This document shows positions 2,552 to 40,167 of a DNA stretch of 64,000 nucleotides, piece after piece. A program made the position numbers and the translations under genes. Position 1 is the first letter of the stretch; every line of letters begins with the position of its first letter. The notes beneath the pieces were generated by a model that did no database searches, was not told the DNA's origin, and saw only the letters and a program-made list of their open reading frames with translations. Origin of the DNA: Calliopum simillimum (Eukaryota > Arthropoda > Insecta > Diptera > Lauxaniidae); NCBI GenBank assembly GCA_951812925.1, contig OX638372.1:88123058-88187057 (forward strand), read 5' to 3'.

Positions 2552-3840
2552 CCGTAAGCAGGGGTGACTTTGATACAAAAAAACAGGTTTTTTAAGTTTA
2601 GGAGCTTATAATTTCAACAATTTTAATTAAATTAATGGTTTCATTGCTCTAAATTTTTCGTGGGGGCCTCAGCTTTGATCTCATGTTATAAAATTTTTAC
2701 GAAGTAATTACAGTTATTTTTAAATAATGTTATTGTAAGTGGGTTAAAGCCACCTCAAGGGTGGGGTGACTTTAACCGAAAAATTTCATTCATTGATTTT
2801 ACATGCTATACCTTCAAAGATGCAAAATGAGAGTATAAGGTTTTGTTAACTTGAGTTTTTTCAATATTTTGGTATATTTCTATAGGCAATCAGTCTAGGT
2901 TATGGAATGTTTTCAAGGTCGCGATTAAAAAAAAAACTAAAATTTTTGATAAATTCGGTTTCAGCCTTTGGTATGTTTTAATTATTTGTACATATGTTAC
3001 ATCAAATAACAATACTGATATTTAGGGCTTAGCAAAACTTAAAAAATCCACAAAAACAAGTTAAAAATCCATTGCAAATTAGAAAATAAAAAATACTTGA
3101 TTCAAAAAATTTAAAAAACAAAAGAAATTCTTAGTAGGTAACTTCAAAAATTCCTCTTTTGTTAAAGGGCTTCGGTGGCTTTTTTTTTGCAAAATTACCT
3201 AAATAAATAATAACAAATATCCTTTTTGGGTCCTCATTAAAATATTAAATTGTTTTACAAAGATCAAAAGGAAAAAATAATTTCACTTTGGCGAAAGACT
3301 AGACTTTATTTTCACTACAGTTCACCATACCCAGTATTTTGGGCGTCAATATGGCCCGAGTTTGGGTTTCTTTTGAGACAGCCTAACAATACAAAGTTTT
3401 TTTGGGGTGACTTTCAACCGGTCCGAAGTCACCCCAAAAACGTTGTTTTCTAACATACTCCTATATAAAAATGCATTAAAAATACTTAGAGGCAAATATA
3501 TCCATGAAAGTCGATTGATTAAGGAAGAAAATTAAACAAAAATTTTAGTGATATCATTCATCCACCGCCAGCAATTTTCCTTCTAGTCAATAAGTAGTAA
3601 TTTTCTGAGCGTTAAAAAATGCTACATAAGACAACTTTTCGAAAAGGCACCAATATATCTGAAAGTTCGCGCTCAAATCAAATATTGAAAACAGACGCTA
3701 AAAGCCAATACTTCAAGGTTACACATTGACCAAATACAAATCGATAACTAGTCTTCGAGGTGAAAATATTACGATTTTAATCTTTTTTTTTCTTGCCGGT
3801 TAAAGTCGCCCCCAGATGTCAAAGTCACCCCTGCTTACGG
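2552..3840. mobile_element. MITE-like element, TIR CCGTAAGCAGGGGTGACTTT
   Basis: A perfect terminal inverted repeat of 23 bp (CCGTAAGCAGGGGTGACTTT plus GA and one more base) is bordered by TA on both sides (2550-2551, 3841-3842). The sub-motif GGGGTGACTTT recurs inside at about 2764, 3405, 3426 (reverse) and 3797 (reverse, one change), plus a weaker copy near 2744. No transposase is visible; the longest frame, at 3250-3453, has no recognisable domain. It is a non-autonomous element, probably TA-targeting. Confidence 0.7.
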
Positions 3841-15909: not shown

Positions 15910-16833
15910 CAGTCTGTTAAATAAGAGCGTGGTCACGATTACTCGCGATCGGTAAAGTATTATGCTGTAATTTTTTTTTCTCACACAGAGGGCAGTATTG
16001 TCCTTCATGCTTCGTGAAAGTGAATCAGCTGACCACTGTTTTCAATGCGTTCTCAGCATTTTTCCAAAATGAGTACCGCGTACGCGTCGCGCTTTGAAGC
16101 CGTTTTTTTGTGTTTGCACCCCAAAGGTCCCAAAATGACCCAAGCGGCGGCTGCGAAGTATATGCAAAAGTCGAAACAGTTTGTGAGTAAGTGGGTGAAT
16201 CGCTTCAAAGAAGTAAAAAATGTCGATGACTTTCCAAATCGCGGGTCTGTCGGTGTAGTGACGGAAAAACAGGAAAAACTGATCTGTGCTCTATTTTCGA
16301 AAAATCCAACATTAACTTTGCGTGAAGGTGCTTCGAAATTGTCCCAAAAAGGTTTGAATATCTCCCACGGAACTATTCGTAATCATTTGATTGCAAATAG
16401 TGTGAAATACCGAAGTACTTTGCAAAAACCGATGCTCAGTGAAAAACATGTCCAAAAACGTCTTGAATGGGCCAAAGACAATTTGGTGTCGTGACTTTGG
16501 ATTGGCCGTCTCAGTCGCCCGATGCCAATCCAATTAAAAACGTTTGGGCGCAAATGAAGATGAAGCTTCAGAAAAACCGACCCTGCAACTTGAAACAGCT
16601 GGTTCGACGCTTTCACAAAATTTGGAGGTCGTTTTCAGAAGAGTATGCGCAAAATCTTGTTCAAAGTATGTCGCGAAGATGTCAAGCTATAATTGATGCT
16701 GGGGGTGATTGGACCTGCTATTAATGTATTTGCATTGAAGTTTTCGATCAAATAAATCAATATTAAAAAGAATTTTCGCAATGGGTATTTTCATTTTCTC
16801 ACAACAATGACCACGCTCTTATTTAACAGACTG
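15910..16833 (+). mobile_element. Tc1-like transposon, internally deleted
   Basis: It has a 26-bp perfect terminal inverted repeat beginning CAGTCTGTTAAATAAGAGCG and a TA duplication (15908-15909, 16834-16835). At 924 bp it is well short of an active Tc1-like element. It carries two pieces of one transposase gene, listed separately. It is non-autonomous now, though intact ends could in principle be mobilised by a related transposase. Confidence 0.92.
16069..16724 (+). pseudogene. Tc1-like transposase remnant
   Basis: The N-terminal part (16069-16494) has a paired-type helix-turn-helix region: a TQAAAAKYM-like helix, WVNRF and a second HTH ending in ISHGTIRNHL. The C-terminal part (16467-16724, a different frame) begins with the DDE-domain block WPSQSPDANPIKNVW and ends at CY. 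The middle, which should carry the first two catalytic aspartates, is deleted. The last catalytic residue, normally glutamate in NPIEN, reads lysine here (NPIKN). Two frames and three missing catalytic residues make it a clear relic. Confidence 0.9.
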
Positions 16834-23457: not shown

Positions 23458-23520
23458 GTAGTAGTAAAGTTGTTGTTGTTGTCTGTTCTGGCATTGTTGT
23501 TGTTAAAAGTTCCTAATTTC
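23458..23520. repeat. Inverted partner of 23140-23200 (CAA/TTG-rich arms)
   Basis: The segment TTGTTGTAGTAGTAGTAAAG ... GTCTGTTCTGGCATTGTTGT is the reverse complement of 23150-23205. The GC-rich element at 23329-23435 lies in the loop between the two arms. Confidence 0.75.
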
Positions 23521-23554
23521 GAAAATTAATTTTTAATTGAACTTTTAGTCATAT

Positions 23555-23828
23555 ATTTGCAAAGATCGATTTACATATAAATCTATCAATGCATTTTCTA
23601 ACACATAAAACACAAAAGTTTTTCAAACTTGCAGTTTTTCAATTATAATTAATTTAGTGGAATAAATATAATTATAATTATAACAATAATAGCCTGATGA
23701 GTCTTTGTGGCGAAAGACGAAACATATGTCACTATAGCCGTGTCTTTCATCCGTTCCTTAATTTTTCATAATTATGTGTTAGAAAATGCATTAATAGATT
23801 TATATGTAAATCGATCTTGGCAAATATG
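23555..23828. repeat. Inverted-repeat unit carrying a hammerhead-like core
   Basis: The arms at 23562-23610 and 23775-23822 are reverse complements (they include GATCGATTTACATATAAATCT and AATGCATTTTCTAACACATA). The loop between them, about 165 bp, contains the ribozyme candidate described next. There is no open frame. It may be a small retrozyme-like or Penelope-related unit, but that is inference. Confidence 0.6.
23694..23730 (+). ncRNA. Candidate hammerhead ribozyme core
   Basis: The order of elements fits a type I hammerhead. CTGATGA lies at 23694-23700. Stem II is GTCTTT (23701-23706) with AAAGAC (23713-23718), six perfect pairs around a GTGGCG loop. GAAA follows at 23719-23722. A minimal stem III is ACA/TGT (23722-23724, 23727-23729), and C23730 would be the cleavage-site base. 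Stem I is weak: after one C-A mismatch, four pairs join 23689-23692 to 23732-23735. A competing helix is possible between GAAAGAC (23712-23718) and GTCTTTC further downstream (about 23742-23748). The core is exact; activity is untested and the short stems lower confidence. Confidence 0.55.
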
Positions 23829-23830
23829 TG

Positions 23831-24526
23831 GGCTGCTATATATTATTCTGGCCTAGGCAACACTAATGTCAATAGCTAAAATAATAAAGTTTGACATTTT
23901 TCAGCATAAACATACTCAGAACGTTTTGACGTATGACCATCATTTGTGTTGTTTACAGTGACTTGAAAAAATCAATTTGGCAAAAAAATGGAATTAACCC
24001 GTGAACATTTTCGTGCGATCATTTTTCACAACTTTCGACGTGGACTATCACAAGATGCATCGATAAACTTAAATCTTTGTATGGCGATGAAGCACCATTC
24101 TATATATAGCACTGTGAAAAACTGGTTTAATGAATTCAATCGTGGCCGACGCTCGCTCAAAGTCGAATTCCGTGCAGGTCGTCCAAAAACGGCCGTTGTG
24201 CCAGACAGAGAACATTGATGCCGTGCGTGAACTGATAATGCAAGATCGTCATGTGACATACCGTGAGATAGAGGCATCCTTGGGCATTTATCCCACTAGC
24301 ATACATTCGATATTGCATGAACACCTGACCCCATAATTTATCAATCGCTTAAATTATCAATGGAAAAATTGATTTTCTTAACTCACTGTAAACAAAACGA
24401 ATAGCACTTGTACATCAAAACGTTGTGAGTACGTTTATGCTAAAAAATGTCAAACTTTATTTTGATGTTGCCAGATTTTAGATATTGACATTAGTGTTGC
24501 CTAGGCCAGAAATTTATATAGCAGCC
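23831..24526 (+). mobile_element. Second mariner-like element, internally deleted
   Basis: The inverted ends start GGCTGCTATATA and continue through CTGGCCTAGGCAACACTAAT. TA follows on the right (24527-24528); the left border reads TG. From CAACACTAATGTCAAT inward the repeats closely match those of the mariner at 17816-18540, while the outermost ~25 bp differ. A hAT-type MITE has inserted just after the right end. Confidence 0.85.
23988..24333 (+). pseudogene. Mariner transposase N-terminal fragment, frameshifted
   Basis: It starts with ATG at 23988 (MELTREHFRAIIFHNFRRG) and runs through FNRGRRSLKVEFRAGRPKT. Near 24200-24215 the frame is lost, and it continues in another frame with an AVRELIMQDRHVTYREIEA-type block and ILHEHL before stopping. 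Only the DNA-binding half of a mariner transposase is represented; no catalytic aspartates remain. Confidence 0.87.
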
Positions 24527-24530
24527 TACG

Positions 24531-24679
24531 CAGTGGCGGATCCAGCATTGTCAAGAGGGGGGGCCGATTGACTACATTTCTAGGTAATAACAGAATGTTT
24601 TCAAAATCCTTACATATAATTTAGGTTTGAGAGAGGGGGCGATCGCCCCATCGCCCCCCCCCCTCTGGATCCGCCACTG
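24531..24679. mobile_element. hAT-type MITE, 149 bp, with exact 8-bp duplication
   Basis: Termini are CAGTGGCGGATCCAG and its exact reverse complement. AGCCTACG is repeated directly at 24523-24530 and 24680-24687. The interior is G-rich on one side and C-rich on the other. The duplicated target includes the last four bases of the mariner at 23831-24526, so this insertion is younger than the mariner. Confidence 0.92.
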
Positions 24680-25466
24680 AGCCTACGTATGTATATGACT
24701 AAAAGTTCAATTAAAAATTAATTTTCAATATATACATGTCATTAAGTAACACACTTAAAAATTCTTAAAAGTTCCTAATTTCAAGAAAATTGATTTGGTC
24801 CATTTTTGTTTTTTTCTATAGAAATTTATTAATGATGCAATGCAGATACATGTTGCATATCAAATGAAAGGAAATAAATTGGGCTTCCTAATTTAGTTAT
24901 TAAAATTATAGGTTAATAATACATTTTTTGGGAAAAATAACGGTTTTTTGGGGAAAAAATGTGGTAAATTTTTGAAAAATTGTCATATCTCGAAAACTAT
25001 GACTCAAATTGAAAAATTTTGTAGAGCAATTATATAGCCCGGTAAAATACCTTTCATATGGCAACAATATTTTTAAAATCCATCAAGGGGTTGTTGTTTT
25101 TGTTGTAATTAATTCTGAGCCCTATTTGGGCAAAAAAAAAAAAATAATAAAAAAACAACAACAGTCGCTTAAGTAAAATTGTTCCCAAAATTTTTTCAAA
25201 AATCCACTTTCAAAAATAACGTTTCATTTTATAAAATTATTTTCTTAAAACTTTTTTAGTTCTGTGGAAACTATTGTGAATGATAAATAAAAAAATAAAA
25301 AAAAAAACAACAAAACAGATGTTAAAGCAAAATAGAGCAATTTTTAACACATTCGTCATCATGCAAACAAAAAAAAGATACATTCCAATAATAAAAAAAA
25401 AAATAAAGTTCAACTACTCATAAAAAGCAAATTTAAGCAAAATATTTATAAAAAACAATTACTCAC

Positions 25467-27504: not shown

Positions 27505-28710
27505 TTGGGTGTACAACTTAAAAATCGGAATTTGACGGTGGATGTCCGTACTAACAAATATCGTGAAAGCTCGAACTTTATATATATGTCATTTTGAAGG
27601 TACATTTGGCAGCTGTCAAAATCAGTCAACAAAACAATTTTATCTTGTGTGCATCATTATTATTTTTCACGATGAATAACTTCGAAAATTCGAGAAAAAG
27701 ACAGCATTTGCGGGAGGTTCTGTTGGGTCTGTTGCGGAAAATAATAGTTTGCTTGTAGAAGTTTATGGCAACGATGCTTTAGGAAAAACACAGTGTTTTG
27801 AATGGTTTGAACTCTTAAAAAGTGCCGATTTTGACATCAAAGACGAAGAACACCCAGGACAGCCAAAAGAAGAAGACGAAGAATTAGAGAAGCTACTCGA
27901 TGAGGATTCGTGTCAAACACAAGACGAGCTTGCCAAATCGTTGGGAGTGACTCAGCAAGCCATTTCGAAACGTTTGAAAGCCGCCGGATACATTCAGAAG
28001 CAAGGTAATTGGGTCCCCTATGAGTTGAAGCCGGGAGACGTTGAACGGCGCTTCTGTATGTCTGAAATGCTGCTTGAGCGCCATAAAAACAAATCATTTT
28101 TGCATCGGATTGTGACGGGATGAAAAATGGATCCATTATAACAATCCAAATATCCATGGCGCCAAGGTTATGCTGTGTATTTGGTGGGATCAGAAGGGGC
28201 CGTTATATTATGAGTTGTTGAAATCGGGCCAGACAATCACAGGTGACCTGTACCGAACACAATTAATACGTTTGAAGCGTGCCCCAATCGAAAAATGCCC
28301 GGAAAATGCGACCAGACACGAAGCAATAATTTTTCATCATGACAACGCTCAGCCGCATGTTGCAAGACCTGTGAAAAACTATTTGGAAAATAGTGGATGG
28401 GAAGTTTTGGCTCACCTGCCTTATAGTCCGGACCTTGCTCCGTCTGACTTTCATTTATTTCGCTCGATGCAAAACGCCGTCACCGGAATACGCTTCACAT
28501 CAGAGCAAGGCATCCGAAATTGGATAGATTCATTTTTGGCCACCAAGCCGGCGCAATTTTTTTGGGATGGAATTCATAAATTGCCTGAAAGATGGGGAAA
28601 TGTTATAGCTTCCAATGGACAATACTTTGAATAAAATATATTGTAACATTTTTCCACAATAAAGCATCAAATTTCGCTAAAAAATTCCGATTTTTAAGTT
28701 GTACACCCAA
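27505..28710 (+). mobile_element. Mariner element with intact ends
   Basis: A 29-bp perfect terminal inverted repeat beginning TTGGGTGTACAACTTAAAAA is flanked by TA on both sides (27503-27504, 28711-28712). The total length, 1206 bp, is close to a complete mariner (about 1.3 kb). The transposase gene inside is nearly full length but broken. This is the best preserved DNA transposon in the window. Confidence 0.95.
27672..28634 (+). pseudogene. Mariner transposase (DD34D), frameshifted
   Basis: The start region at 27672 is in a different frame from the main body, which runs from about 27749 with VEVYGNDALGKTQCFEWF and a second HTH (LAKSLGVTQQAISKRLKAAG). The motif around the first catalytic aspartate, IVTGDEKWI, is split by a 1-base deletion near 28120, creating a TGA. 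About 20 residues are missing just after it, between NP and NIHGAKVMLC. The second aspartate is in HHDNAQPH (28339-28362) and the third in YSPDLAPSDFHLF (28423-28461). It ends normally with GQYFE and TAA. All three aspartate motifs remain recognisable, but the gene cannot make one protein. Confidence 0.93.
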
Positions 28711-35600: not shown

Positions 35601-38600
35601 CTTCTCGATTGATCACCTTAACATAATGGGAAAGTTCCGGCTCCAGACCAGGGCCGACCTGAAAAATACGAACTGGGTCCATTGGGTTGAACCCGAAAAA
35701 TTCGAATTTTCACAGGAAAGATCTTGGCAATGTTTAAAACCACTTTGAAATTAAATGTCTTATAGCGATTAGAAAGACTTTTATAGCGCGTATAAAATTG
35801 AGAAAAAGCATCAAAAAATGCATTGAGAACTAACTCACTTTATTCGCGATTTAGTTTTCAAAAAGCACTAAAACAAGGTTGGCATCACAGTGTTAAAGTC
35901 AAATGGAAAATAATAGGGCTGTATAGTAGTTTTTTTGGCGAAAGTTGTGATAAAAGTATTCCGGCTGAAATTGGCATTTCCACGATTGCAAATTCTCGAG
36001 AAAGGAATATATTCTAGAAAGGGAATTTCCAGACAAATTCATGATAAGGCTTTAAATGTAAATTGACATAGAAAAACGACACAATCAGCAAAAATGTTTG
36101 AGTTTTGGTTGCAGCCAAAGACCGTCTATACTTCAACTTAAATGTGGAAATAAGTTACAGTGTTAAACTTACTATAAAATGTAAGCCCTGAACACCTTTC
36201 GAACGATCTTTCAATATATTAGCATTATGAAGCAATTTTAACTTCATATCCTTAGATGTATATATTCTAAATATATAACCGACAAATTCCAAAATGTGTA
36301 TTTTCTGCAACGAGTTGCTTTGCACAAACCATATATTAAGTGAATGTCCTGTGTCGAAAATTAATCTTCCAATAGCAAATATCCTTGACTGTCGTAATGA
36401 TGGAACCAATGCATTCACCTTTTCGGCGAAAGTATGGTTATCGCTCTGGATATTTCAAAGGCTTTTGATCGAGTGTGGCATCGCGCCCTATTATCAAAAC
36501 TAATTGCATATGGTGTCGGTGATTCTTTTGCTCTTTGGATCACTAGCTTCTGTAGTAACCGTTTGATCCGTGTTGTAGTTGATGGTTTCACTTCCATTGA
36601 ACACTCCATTAACGCTGGAGTTCCCCAGGGTTCTGTGCTTTCTCCAACACTTTTCCTTATTTTTATCGATGACCTTCTGTCTTCGACTACAGGCCCAATC
36701 CATTCCTTTGCGGATGATAGTAACATTTGTTATTCATATGGCTTTAAAAAGCGTCCCAGTTCTACGGAGGTTGAGATTAAAAGACGCCATATGTATGATA
36801 CACTCTCAAATGATCTCAATAAAATTTCCGAGTGGGGTCTTGCTAATCGGGTCGATTTCAATGCTAGCAAGACCCAATGTTGTCTGTTATCTCACAGACG
36901 AATGAATTGCTCTTCTGCTCACCTTAATATGGCTGGCGTAGACATTGCAAGATCACCATCTCTTGACGTTCTGGGCATATCGATTCAATCGGATTTGAGG
37001 TGGACTGACCATGTGTTTCATGTGTCGAAAGAAGCGGCCAAGTGTATAGGTTTTTTGAAACGGCGCACATAGGGGTATCTGAGTTAAAAACCTGGTCAAA
37101 ATTAATAACTCCGAAACTACTGGTCCGATTTCGGAAATTGAGGTGCCATTTTGTTCAGATTATTCAGACGATCAAAATAATTACAGACTCGTTTAAAAAA
37201 ATTGTCGGCAGAGGTCGCTGCAGACAAGTCAAATATTTGAGGACTTGTAGCTCCTGTATAACCGAGCGGATTTTGGTTCTTATAAAGTTTTCCTTTTTCA
37301 TATTACTAAAATGACCATTTGATAGTATTAAACTTTTGAAATTCATTTAATAGATGGCGCTGTACAGATGATAATTGTTGTAACTTTTAGGGCCTTCTAT
37401 GTCCTATACTGCTTTATTGATTTTAGCTATCAAGGTGTCAATCAATTCATATAACTTAGAAGAGTAGTTCGAAAGCACTACAGAATAGAAAATTTTATCA
37501 CAGAGGGCGCTAGAGACAAAACCACCATAAACAAATTTTAAACATTCTATATCACTGTACCTTATTTAATAGATATGGTTTATTCTTTCGGTATTGTTAA
37601 CTGGGCTAATACATTAATGCTGAATTCTCAACAAATTGATAATAGAGGCCAACATAACTTACCAAAGCTTCAACTTTTCAATCTCCGAACTAATAATTTA
37701 ACTGGAAGTAATAAAATCTCAAGTTTTTCAAAAACATAGTAATTTTTGTCGTTGGAAAAGGAAATCCAAGAATCGGGAAAATCGTGGCAAGAGATCAAAG
37801 TCATCGCAAGGGATCGTGACAAATGGAGAGATTTCATATTGGCCCTATGCTCCTCCTAGGAGTTAAAGGAGAATACATACATACATACATAGGCGTTAGC
37901 AAAAAGTGCAGCTATTTTGCGAATTGGAAATAGTAGGAGCCAAATTTTGCAGTTTTAGTTACAAAAAGATTTAATTTATGAGAATATTTGGTAGAGAAAA
38001 TTGGGACTCGTGAGGATCCATTACTTTTCTTCTATTAAAAATTAAATATTTTTCAATGAAAAATACTCATTTACTTGTAAAGTTTGATCACACTATTTTG
38101 ACTCTCATAATCATTTTTTTTTTTTATAAAATTATATTCACTGTTGAGAACACACCTGTCGTAGAAGAATCCATTCTGCAATTTTTCGTTTTTCCCTGCA
38201 CTTAAAGAAATATACGCACTTAAATCAACACTTCTTTCGCAGCTTTAAAATTGTATTTTAAAATGTTTCACAAAACTTCAACTTTGACAGCGTAGTATGC
38301 AGCCGCAGATTGATTTAGATAAAATCGGGTGTCAGATTTCTTTTGTTTGGAGTGTTAGCTGTGTAATAGAAAAAAATTGGATCATTTTGGACCAATTTCA
38401 AAAATTCGTTTTTGACCAGCTTTTCGGGTTAAATCTCCCTATGTGCGGCGTAAGAAATACTTCACTCCTGTTGATCTTCGTAATGTCTACTTTACCTATA
38501 TTCGTCCGAAACTGGAATACAATTCACACATTTGGGCCGGGGCTTCAAAAACATCTTTAGAGCTGCTAGACCGAGTTCAGCGACGTGTGTTTAAACTTAT

Positions 38601-40167
38601 TGGTGACATAAATATTATATCCTCAATTGACACCCTTGAGCACCGACGTAACGTAGGGTGTATAACTCTTTTTTATAGATATTATAATAGGATGTGCTCT
38701 AGAGAGATATGCGACCTGGTTCCCTCAATTCGTATCTTCTCTCGAGGCACTCGGGCGTCCAATTCGGCCCATCCTTTTTGCGTCACACCGGCGCCAAGCA
38801 GAACATCCCACTATCGTGATAATTCGTTCTTCGGTCGTACGATTAAGTTGTGGAACAACCTCCCAGTCACTGTTTTCCCTGTAGGATACGACATTCAAAA
38901 ATTCAAGAAAAACGTTCACCAACACTACTCCATCTTTCCCCCCTCCCTCTAACCTATTTCCTTTCTTCAAACCAACACAGTGCTATGCATTTATAGGGGT
39001 CATCCCCTGAGCGTTGGTTTCAATTAAAAAAAAAAAAAAAAAAAAATTATGACAATAGAAAACTAATTACTGAAGCACTTAAAAAACACGATTTATTATA
39101 TGAAACCTAAGCAAAAACATATACTAAGTAGAACTATTATAAAATTATGTTAATCTATTGGGGTGTAATGGCCTAGCTACCCAACTCCTCTTAATATATT
39201 TAGTAAATTAACTTTGCTAAATATTTGAAATAAATCAATAAATATATAAATAACCGACATATAATTGAGAAAATCGCTAACAAATTTTAAAGCTTTATCA
39301 ATAATATTCCGTAGGGAATCCTATATCCACATTATCGATTGGTTTAATATCAACACTCTCTTTTCGAAGAAACAATAAAAATTCAGACTCTAAACTAGGG
39401 GTGTACAAAATTAAACTTGAGAGTATGTGTATGAGAGAAGATAGATAGAAAGGACTTTCTTAATGATAATTTGATATGCTTCACTTACATCTATTTCCAT
39501 AAGTTTGTCTTGCTCGTCTTCAAACGACTGACCTAAAATCATTTCGTTCTCATAAAGTTTTTGATTTTTTTCTAGCTCTACTTTCACATCAGGTTTGTTA
39601 TAATATATGTCTGATTCCTTTTCATTTGCATTATCTTTAATGAATTCTTCTTCTCCTTTTTCAAATGCATCAAACACTTTGTAAATTATTTCATTTTCAA
39701 CTATTTCTTTCTTCAGTTTCAAGCTTAGTTCAAGATTTTTACAATCTAAGACCATTTCAGTTTCAATTTCTGCTTGAACATCTTCAATGCTGTATTCCTC
39801 TACAAATGATATTTTCTTTTGTTCCGCACTGTCCACATCCAAGGGTGCAATAAGTGCACTCAAACGGTTGTGTGAATGCTGACAGGTCTTGCGAAACATG
39901 TAAGCCTCCTTTAGGCACTGGAGGCATTTGGTACATATTTTGTCCGGATAATGATCGAATTGTTTAATCTAAATAAATATAATAAATTAAACAGTTTGTT
40001 AATAAACTTAACACTTTACAACATACAGGCACCCCACCGCACTCATGTATCAACAGCGTAAGATCTTTTTCATCGTTCGGATGAAAAATTGATTCCAAGG
40101 CTTCAACCGGCTGATGCAGGCAAATACGACATACAATCCACTTTTCCATACCATCTTTAAGCTCCAT
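29482..40167 (-). CDS. ZAD-domain C2H2 zinc-finger protein, ten exons, 551 residues
   Basis: Joined exons: 40167-40027, 39968-39489, 35111-34870, 34800-34729, 34660-34610, 34542-34375, 33684-33547, 33459-33376, 33290-33156, 29626-29482. All introns are GT-AG and all phases agree, giving 1656 nt with a stop. The ZAD (residues ~10-90) has the four zinc ligands C13, C16, C59 and C62. An acidic linker (~90-207) and a basic, Lys/Ser-rich stretch (~225-285) follow. Then come nine C2H2 fingers, the first lacking its second cysteine and the last one residue short. ZAD proteins are insect DNA-binding regulators that dimerise through the ZAD and act in the nucleus; the target is unknown. Fingers 4-5 and 8-9 look like duplicates. 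I do not recognise a specific ortholog. Confidence 0.88.
30550..30577. repeat. (GA)n microsatellite
   Basis: About twelve GA units in a row, followed by a TATATA-rich region near 30608-30650. It gives rise to spurious Ser/Leu- and Arg/Glu-repeat frames. Confidence 0.9.
30805..33021. mobile_element. 2.2-kb fold-back element in ZAD intron 9
   Basis: The arms at 30805-31256 and 32577-33021 are reverse complements over about 450 bp, with outer ends GCCCAGGAAAAT next to TA. Phrases such as GGTGTATACAGAATCCAATT and TTGTGGAGAAAAATTTTTCT occur in both arms, in opposite directions. The right arm has a few small insertions. The spacer is partly taken up by another element at 31330-32443. No transposase was found. 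Confidence 0.85.
31330..32443. mobile_element. Nested MITE with iterated TTTGCCGT motif
   Basis: The ends are TCGTCGGTTGAGTATTA and, reversed, TCGTCGCCTGAGTATTA, next to TA on both sides; both then continue with TTTGCCGTAAAC. The word TTGCCGT recurs inside near 31478, 31517, 31545 (reverse) and 31603. It lies within the loop of the fold-back element at 30805-33021 and so inserted later. Confidence 0.65.
33156..33290 (-). CDS. ZAD gene exon 9: fingers 7 and 8
   Basis: Encodes CEICDRTF...TWHMRNH and CSYCPKAF...RRNHYR. It resembles exon 6 in its second half and has the same unusual CG|gttaga donor, supporting descent from a duplication. Confidence 0.83.
33376..33459 (-). CDS. ZAD gene exon 8: finger 6
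   Basis: Completes [21 protein letters not shown] followed by a TGER-type linker, the canonical spacer between adjacent DNA-binding fingers. Confidence 0.83.
33547..33684 (-). CDS. ZAD gene exon 7: finger 5
   Basis: Encodes [14 protein letters not shown]...LKRHKIKVH and a 12-residue spacer, ending in YKCE with a gtaagt donor. It is clearly related to exon 10. Confidence 0.83.
33880..34195. mobile_element. Short MITE with CGAAATAACGCCC motif
   Basis: GACCCACATAAAAACGAAAT at the left and a reversed copy ending TGTGGGCGTTATCT at the right enclose repeats of AACGAAATAACGCCCA. A closely similar unit is at 55035-55186. It is in ZAD intron 6. Confidence 0.6.
34375..34542 (-). CDS. ZAD gene exon 6: fingers 3 and 4
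   Basis: Contains CDTCGRTF...RHIRTH and CSYCPKTF...LVRHNR. The donor CG|gttaga is weak, but splicing there yields H-N-R-T-H with exon 7, exactly the H-x3-H spacing wanted. If it is not used, the frame runs on for ten codons (LEETAFYN...) to TAA at 34347-34349. Confidence 0.8.
34610..34660 (-). CDS. ZAD gene exon 5: finger 2 (51-bp micro-exon)
   Basis: Completes CEICERTF...ALEKHHRTH across the two junctions. Its small size and consistent phase 2 on both sides show how finely the finger array is split. Confidence 0.82.
34729..34800 (-). CDS. ZAD gene exon 4: degenerate finger 1
   Basis: With the preceding cysteine it reads CKVYGLTF...[13 protein letters not shown]. The second zinc cysteine is replaced by tyrosine (TAT for TGT), so this finger should not bind zinc. 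The phases fit both neighbours. Confidence 0.82.
34870..35111 (-). CDS. ZAD gene exon 3: basic linker
   Basis: About 80 residues with a [19 protein letters not shown] basic cluster and [10 protein letters not shown], plausible as a nuclear localisation signal. It ends in CK with a gtaagt donor in phase 2. Confidence 0.82.
35150..36035. repeat. Dispersed repeat, copy 1 (ZAD intron)
   Basis: It shares ordered blocks with 45470-46020 and with 52090-52625 plus 53430-53600: a CTCACTGG(A)AAGTAAGG-type block, GGTTGGCATCACAGTG (35878), and CACGATTGCAAATTCTCGAGA (35981, one word of which is shared). Its length is about 0.9 kb. No protein is coded; its class is unknown. Confidence 0.6.
36290..36420 (+). 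mobile_element. LINE C-terminal tail fragment (Cys-rich motif)
   Basis: The frame reads [18 protein letters not shown], which has the C-x2-C...H-x4-C spacing found at the C-terminal end of ORF2 in several non-LTR retrotransposons. The fragment is short, and the upstream part is out of frame. It abuts the next LINE copy. Confidence 0.5.
36434..37060 (+). pseudogene. LINE reverse transcriptase, first block
   Basis: Contains [12 protein letters not shown] (metal-binding aspartate in the first RT motif), [14 protein letters not shown], and the catalytic HSFADDSN (the DD pair) near 36700-36720. It is open up to the DNA-transposon insertion. It is the palm region of the polymerase without its N-terminal endonuclease. 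Confidence 0.92.
37061..37065. repeat. Target duplication CGGCG, left copy
   Basis: Direct repeat of 5 bp flanking the Transib-like element; the other copy is at 38446-38450. A GC-rich 5-bp CGNCG duplication is characteristic of Transib transposons. Confidence 0.8.
37066..38445. mobile_element. Transib-like non-autonomous element inside the LINE
   Basis: 1380 bp between two CGGCG copies. The ends are CACATAGGGG and, reversed, CACATAGGGAGA. Further in, CTGGTCAAAA and ACTGGTCC/TTGGTCC occur at similar positions from each end. A CAC start with a CGNCG 5-bp duplication fits Transib (the superfamily related to RAG1). No transposase core is visible, so it is a deletion derivative. Removing the element with one CGGCG would make the LINE frame continuous, which shows exactly where it inserted. 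Confidence 0.78.
38446..38952 (+). pseudogene. LINE reverse transcriptase, second block
   Basis: Continues the LINE frame after the insertion with [25 protein letters not shown] and [15 protein letters not shown], the thumb region of many CR1/Jockey-type ORF2 proteins. It ends at a TAA (38950-38952) after FPPSL, followed by about 75 bp of 3' UTR and the A-run. Confidence 0.9.
39489..39968 (-). CDS. ZAD gene exon 2: second ZAD half and acidic linker
   Basis: 160 residues. It starts with [18 protein letters not shown], the second zinc-ligand pair of the ZAD, followed by a Glu-rich linker of about 110 residues. The acceptor is preceded by TTTATTTAG; the donor is gtaagt; phase 0. Intron 2 behind it holds the LINE/Transib insertions. 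Confidence 0.88.
40027..40167 (-). CDS. ZAD gene exon 1: start codon and first ZAD half
   Basis: ATG at 40167 is preceded by ATCAA, a good insect start context. It encodes 47 residues with the first zinc-ligand pair WIVCRICL and ends in the conserved acidic/hydrophobic helix region. The donor is gtatgt; phase 0. Confidence 0.88.

Follow-up and report, generated by a model that had tools for sequence, protein, structure and literature searches.

The window, i.e. the whole 64,000-nt stretch of the Calliopum simillimum genome that was analysed (on contig C5), contains at positions 23521–24769 an insertion derived from a repeat that carries a hammerhead ribozyme motif. Positions within the repeat unit are given below as u numbers, with u1 being the first base after the predicted cut. 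The insertion is flanked by an exact 18-bp direct repeat, TTAAAAGTTCCTAATTTC at 23503–23520 and its counterpart at 24765–24782, which is taken as a target-site duplication of 12–18 bp because the TTAAAA may belong to the end of the element. The left arm (23521–23608, minus strand, 98% match to the unit) is an antisense cDNA which starts at a position termed site A and runs from u129 to u42. It meets the first part of the right arm (23607–23830, plus strand, 92% match), which extends from u421 through the hammerhead to u100. There the alignment to the unit halts and resumes at u95, the element being split by a later insertion of ~861 bp (23831–24691) that contains a disrupted mariner-type transposase start with in-frame stops and an HTH_48 (Mos1) match below its cut-off (E=0.017). 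The end part of the right arm (24692–24769, plus strand, 90% match) then continues from u95 to u176 and stops at a position termed site B. The 270-bp inverted-repeat unit that the original prediction had placed at 23555–23828 is real as an inverted repeat (59-nt arms, 95%), but it is not the unit itself and is made up of a pair of short antisense cDNA arms, both derived from a unit of ~544 nt, within an insertion that is larger than previously assumed. The window copy does not include u177–u420 and has therefore lost the A and B boxes described below; this truncated and decayed copy of the element is probably no longer active. Elsewhere in the window, transposase frames at 28116–28631 and 16033–16491 have Pfam matches to Transposase_1 (mariner type) and HTH_Tnp_Tc3_2, and a reverse transcriptase frame (RVT_1, 36401–37069), which by reading is not that of a Penelope-like element (PLE), is followed by a frame without a Pfam match (38416–38949).

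The hammerhead motif lies on the plus strand at 23694–23730 and reads CTGATGA GTCTTT GTGGCG AAAGAC GAAA CATATGTC. The features on which its prediction was based are all found upon re-reading. The core CUGAUGA (23694–23700) is followed by a perfect 6-bp stem II (23701–23718), in which GUCUUU at 23701–23706 pairs with AAAGAC at 23713–23718 around the loop GUGGCG, and by the GAAA at 23719–23722. Next comes a minimal palindromic stem III (ACAUAUGU) of two pairs, A23722–U23729 and C23723–G23728, with an AUAU loop, and the segment from 23719 to 23730 ends in the triplet GUC, which both direct reading and the alignment of copies identify as the predicted cleavage site, with the cut 3′ of C23730. Finally, the strands AUAGC (23689–23693, consensus AUAGU) and ACUAU (23731–23735), both on the plus strand, form stem I, in which C23693 mispairs with A23731 and four pairs follow. 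The core CUGAUGA...GAAA and an NUH cleavage triplet are those of a type I hammerhead, and in the aligned copies the consensus core is surrounded by stems I, II and III of 5, 6 and 2 bp, respectively. The observation of a hammerhead motif in the window is thereby confirmed.

The Rfam hammerhead models, which had been suggested as a check, do not recover the motif. Within the window all Rfam matches stay below gathering; the best hammerhead match there, to the type III model RF00008, scores 20.7 compared to the required 48.5 bits, with one weaker match of the same clan besides, and the consensus-like copy L021 reaches 24.2 of the 48.5 bits with RF00008. The short stem III is a likely cause of the low scores, which weaken the database call and not the motif itself. 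The predicted folds of short hammerhead pieces are also no better than those of shuffled sequences, and for a 78-nt consensus piece the best fold (−8.9) is other than the hammerhead (−5.0). Folding alone therefore favours no hammerhead, and the evidence for it comes from the motif together with its genomic copies. When the folds are predicted, stem II appears in consensus-like copies and is absent from the window copy, in which the changes at u14 and u18 would permit a rival helix occupying one of the stem II strands. When folded as a circle, the unit has a predicted energy of −119.5 kcal/mol, while 30 mononucleotide shuffles average −87.5 kcal/mol (z −4.8).

In the 690-Mb genome, the whole 37-nt motif is found exactly at 1,478 places (744 + 734), whereas the reversed-pattern control yields none. 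The core and stem II, which might have been expected to be lost from other copies if the motif were spurious, are thus preserved together with the rest of it, and the dispersed and tandem copies found in the genome lend support to the earlier suggestion of a small hammerhead of the PLE or retrozyme type residing in a repeat. No match to the exact motif was found in viral contigs. The weak stem I reported previously, with a mismatch and four pairs, is true of the window but not of the family, as five perfect pairs between AUAGU and ACUAU are found in 22 of the 25 aligned copies, the exceptions being the window, L014 and one unit of L010. Among the 21 loci chosen by similarity, position 2.1 is U except for a C in the window and in L014 and an A in L010, and the consensus U restores the 5-bp stem. 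Judging from these copies, the weak stem I of the window is a nearly private change. Cells deviating from the majority in the same 21 loci are less frequent in the hammerhead (14/1,426) than in the rest of u421–u100 (107/5,671; Fisher p=0.016), which is only modest support because the copies are not independent.

The repeat unit is non-coding and ~544 nt long, with lengths of 539–568 nt across arrays and a G+C content of 0.325. It occurs both singly and in head-to-tail arrays, and the hammerhead corresponds to u503–u544 and u1–u5. Its longest stretch free of stops, on the antisense strand, measures 101 aa, and no open frame with reverse transcriptase (RT) and GIY-YIG domains is found in the unit, which could therefore act only as a non-autonomous client.

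The architecture of the insertions was compared at 61 loci, comprising the window, 20 loci from among the best similarity matches and 40 from among the first-listed places with the exact motif, the latter on chromosome C1 only. Each of the 60 further stretches was mapped onto the unit; L099 and L100, being duplicates of other stretches, were left out. At 42 of the 61 loci two antisense cDNAs are joined head to head, and neighbouring segments separated by under 60 nt form 45 pairs, of which 42 have an inverted orientation that is head to head in every case. The outer ends fall mostly into two clusters, site A at ~130 nt and site B at ~178 nt past the cut. When the end classes are set at u113–150 for A and u160–190 for B, which was done after the end positions had been seen, and the distant second segment of L017, L022 and L028 is set aside, both ends can be classed at 38 loci. 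An A end is combined with a B end at 37 of these, compared to 19.6 expected by shuffling, and the combination is found at 13/14 of the similarity-chosen and 24/24 of the motif-chosen loci. The remaining 23 loci consist of 19 with a single arm and four at which an end belongs to neither class. At 36/61 loci the ends are flanked by direct repeats of 9 bp or more, as opposed to 1/61 for shifted control flanks, and the lengths of these repeats vary among the loci, while the arm lengths and inner joins vary freely among the copies. Head-to-head arms, a tail on one arm and a short target duplication, by which PLE-type insertions are recognized, are all present.

The PLEs of the host genome appear to follow a similar principle. 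Four PLE insertions were picked by hand as paired GIY-YIG matches facing away from each other, and their outer flanks were compared. Three of the four are A/B-like, with the second arm ending 31–32 nt further and with shared flanks of 12–15 bp; two of these three represent one PLE family at different places. At the fourth place, C5:64069, the arms diverge after 142 nt. As far as the ends reveal, the window element is inserted like most of these PLEs. A PLE outside the hand-picked set, L077, departs from the A/B pattern, its left arm starting inside the reading frame. The inverted left arm, at 758–852 of the L077 stretch, duplicates the 3′ portion of the PLE's own frame (3228–3322).

Taken together, the element is likely to be a non-autonomous, non-coding and high-copy retrozyme-like retroelement. 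Its hammerhead would cleave it, it would probably then form a circle, and the PLE machinery would copy it using both target strands as starting points. The head-to-tail units, the head-to-head pairs of apparent antisense cDNAs, the target duplications, the A/B ends and the type I hammerhead motif can be read from the sequence itself, and the intervening steps would be the following. First, the unit would be transcribed, for which A and B boxes are present, although a T5 run separates them from the hammerhead, and the hammerhead, acting as a monomer or as a stem-III dimer, would cut the multimeric RNA to unit length. Next, the unit RNA would be closed into a circle, and a PLE reverse transcriptase/GIY-YIG endonuclease would cut both target strands ~9–18 bp apart, whereupon both target ends could prime on the same template, with one cDNA starting from A and the other from B. 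Finally, a cDNA running past its own start would give rise to tandem units, and the two cDNA ends would be joined, partly by microhomology. The middle joins overlap by 1–11 nt in 28 of 42 cases, and microhomology is only partly shown by this figure since overlaps of 1–2 nt are expected by chance.

A broader reading is proposed tentatively, with a chance of being correct that is judged to be slightly less than even. The ~1,500 dispersed copies might be the fossil traces of one PLE reaction, in which two reverse transcriptions take place on one template, probably circular and made by the ribozyme, each target strand priming one of them and the starts A and B being different. The PLE "tail" would then be what a two-strand reaction normally leaves behind and, if this is true, PLEs would be the movers of animal retrozymes, here with internal A and B promoter boxes. 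This broader reading was at first considered evenly balanced, and its chance is put a little lower because L077 departs from the rule. The near-absolute A/B rule provides a concrete and testable statement on PLE chemistry, and the anatomy of the insertions itself points to PLEs, with one genome holding both partners, which bears on how ribozyme elements move.

The arrays allow the nature of the template to be addressed. Segments longer than one unit account for 16 of 110, the longest being 2,879 nt, and tandem units around the hammerhead, as required of a retrozyme, are found. Two or more complete units are present in three of the arrays that were read, L076, L010 and L096, with unit lengths of 544, of 546 and 553, and of 564 and 568 nt, respectively. 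In L076 five complete units stand in a row with zero substitutions between them, four of 544 nt being identical and the fifth, of 542 nt, differing by a 2-nt gap only, and the terminal partial unit has one difference in 133. The two units of L096 (564 and 568 nt) differ by one substitution in 564 and by four gap columns, and in this array the unit length evidently follows the template. In L010 there are 26 differences, of which 25 are private to one unit, as expected if the mutations post-date the insertion. Units from different loci differ by 3.4–3.7%, and in 41 of 46 comparisons, which are not independent of one another, an arm is nearer to the opposite arm of its own locus than to other loci; the five failures comprise four of the seven comparisons in L010 and one of the two in L050. 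The homogeneity of the arrays would fit repeated laps around one RNA circle, and a homogeneous linear tandem source could also yield identical units.

The latter possibility, in which a linear multimer transcribed across a genomic array serves as template, no circle is involved and the hammerhead is a passenger, is the strongest of the alternatives, and is nonetheless considered rather unlikely. Most segments run across the cleavage site without a break, tandem arrays do exist, and insertion of a PLE in vitro does not depend on hammerhead cleavage, hammerhead mutants of the anole PLE PAc being reported to insert still (PMC11167929). A linear source is also consistent with a second non-coding repeat family, which is 78–81% related to the unit over u380–u539 and has a B box, CTGATGT in place of the core and a damaged GAAA, while a cleavage site is absent. 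It is present at L087 (from 186 on) and L079, where it adjoins PLE GIY-YIG ends, and it is high-copy, with 1,730 first-look candidates for a query that includes the part common to the first family; among the best 40 of these candidates, the best-scoring copies are 94–99% identical to L087. The second family either moves without cutting, was amplified before the damage, or relies on another processing step, and its abundance despite the damaged core suggests that such repeats may not require an intact hammerhead. On the other hand, a linear multimer would have to come from a homogeneous source array, given that each array has one sequence despite the divergence between loci. The inner ends also crowd at the cut site, with 8 of 110 at u1–u12 and two of these exactly at u1, which is only a weak hint of cut templates because the u37–u48 interval likewise has 8/110; the latter is read here as a recurrent join at an AACACA match.

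The circular, PLE-copied element must further be compared with a SINE of the schistosome Sm-alpha type, transcribed by RNA polymerase III and moved by a LINE. The consensus unit has an A box, TGGTGCAGTGG, at u356 and a B box, GGTTCGACTCC, at u399, and such a pair with its spacing of 43 nt arises in one of 200,000 first-order random sequences, although the L076 unit fails the strict B box at the final bases of the box. Sm-alpha is likewise described as a tRNA-related SINE with a hammerhead (PMC2770079). However, the boxes are separated from the hammerhead by a T4 run at u434 and a T5 run at u449, at which polymerase III would probably terminate, so that a transcript of this polymerase covering the ribozyme is less likely. 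In addition, no tRNA was detected by ARAGORN in 20 loci or by Rfam in the consensus-like copy L021, and the insertions end at A and B rather than at one 3′ end, so that a SINE of this kind appears improbable.

The head-to-head form could also result from self-priming of a single cDNA without two target primers, as has been proposed in PMC3846280 for rotifer PLEs with palindromic junctions, and the arms of one locus are indeed similar. A simple foldback nevertheless predicts equal ends, while the ends differ in 37/38 loci, and it predicts neighbouring inner ends, while those of opposite arms are at most 20 nt apart in 1/42 junctions and at most 60 nt apart in 7/42, with ~9 expected at random. 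Since the inner ends are not neighbours, neither arm is a simple foldback copy of the other, and self-priming is regarded as highly improbable. Least credible by far is a foldback or MITE-type DNA transposon with terminal inverted repeats and a hammerhead-like loop arising by coincidence, which would suit the resemblance of the window copy to a 270-bp inverted repeat and the inverted ends of other copies, but not the non-equivalent ends with unequal unit positions in 37 of the 38 resolved pairs, the varying arm lengths and inner joins, the tandem units in some copies or the flanking repeats of varying length. A simple satellite and a single-arm LINE-type insertion were considered as well and rejected.

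Several known systems resemble the retrozyme-like element in part. Small hammerhead repeats of animals have been described as retrozymes (PMC7229834), and the animal non-LTR retrozymes as characterized there (Cervera and de la Pena 2020) have in common with the present element a type I hammerhead, a weak stem III, low G+C content and no LTR, as well as occurrence as dimers to multimers, target duplications of more than 4 bp and the presence of PLEs in the genome. In contrast, their size is given as 150–450 bp versus 539–568 nt here; the unit exceeds the published size class, and the element is therefore called retrozyme-like and not a member. According to a 2020 review (PMC7761336), retrozymes seem to be promoterless and the animal ones have no motif that would reveal the autonomous partner, for which PLEs are likely candidates, whereas the present unit contains A and B boxes. 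The main text of PMC7229834 does not use the word "inverted", and no two-arm insertions of the head-to-head kind were noted there for animal retrozymes.

Hammerheads have already been known from PLEs and from schistosome SINE-like repeats (PMC2770079, PMC8490949). The rotifer PLEs are described as having an inverted pLTR, an optional 31-bp tail and duplications of 8–10 bp (PMC3846280), and a purified anole PLE is reported to extend both target strands, reverse transcription starting at two adjacent internal sites in agreement with the genomic tail (PMC11167929). As presented in these two sources, hammerhead-pLTR PLEs are like the present element in their head-to-head arms, the tail on one arm, the short target duplication and a minimal hammerhead upstream of the ends; the present element differs in having no protein and in an A–B distance of ~45–50 nt rather than 31–32. 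The schistosome Sm-alpha and Sj-alpha are similarly short mobile repeats combining a hammerhead with a part that is tRNA-related or resembles a polymerase III promoter, but they belong to another phylum, no two-arm insertion was seen for them in PMC2770079, and the present unit has no tRNA detectable by ARAGORN. No A/B-box hammerhead repeat with PLE-type insertion ends was found in the literature searched by title and abstract opening, which included few subscription papers.

Both the partner of the element and the A/B rule can be examined by counting, since this fly genome is assembled to chromosome scale and has hundreds of insertions. The genome contains at least 51 GIY-YIG matches (150 of the 209 candidates having been scored), some of which are not PLEs. 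L077 has an open frame of 841 aa with RT and GIY-YIG domains, the named relatives of which are uncharacterised fly proteins; the named matches of a host gene are from flies as well. Among 13 PLE stretches none was found to share the A/B region of the unit, and the sole strong match to the unit, through which alone the sampled PLE stretches have sequence in common with the element, is the second repeat family located behind two of them. The pattern CTGANGA...GAAA occurs on the coding strand of 10 of the 13 stretches, with two matches on the other strand representing the background of this loose pattern, and seven PLE stretches have GAAATGCAT, a palindrome, at the place of stem III. In L078, L080, L081, L083, L088 and L089 an extra T follows CTGATGA and a palindromic ATGCAT replaces stem III; one may speculate that such motifs are suited to act as dimers. 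Two small contigs, C104 and C183, contain frames of 612–622 aa with GIY-YIG, which recall bacterial UvrC, perhaps from an endosymbiont or a contaminant, so that a bacterial source may be guessed for them.
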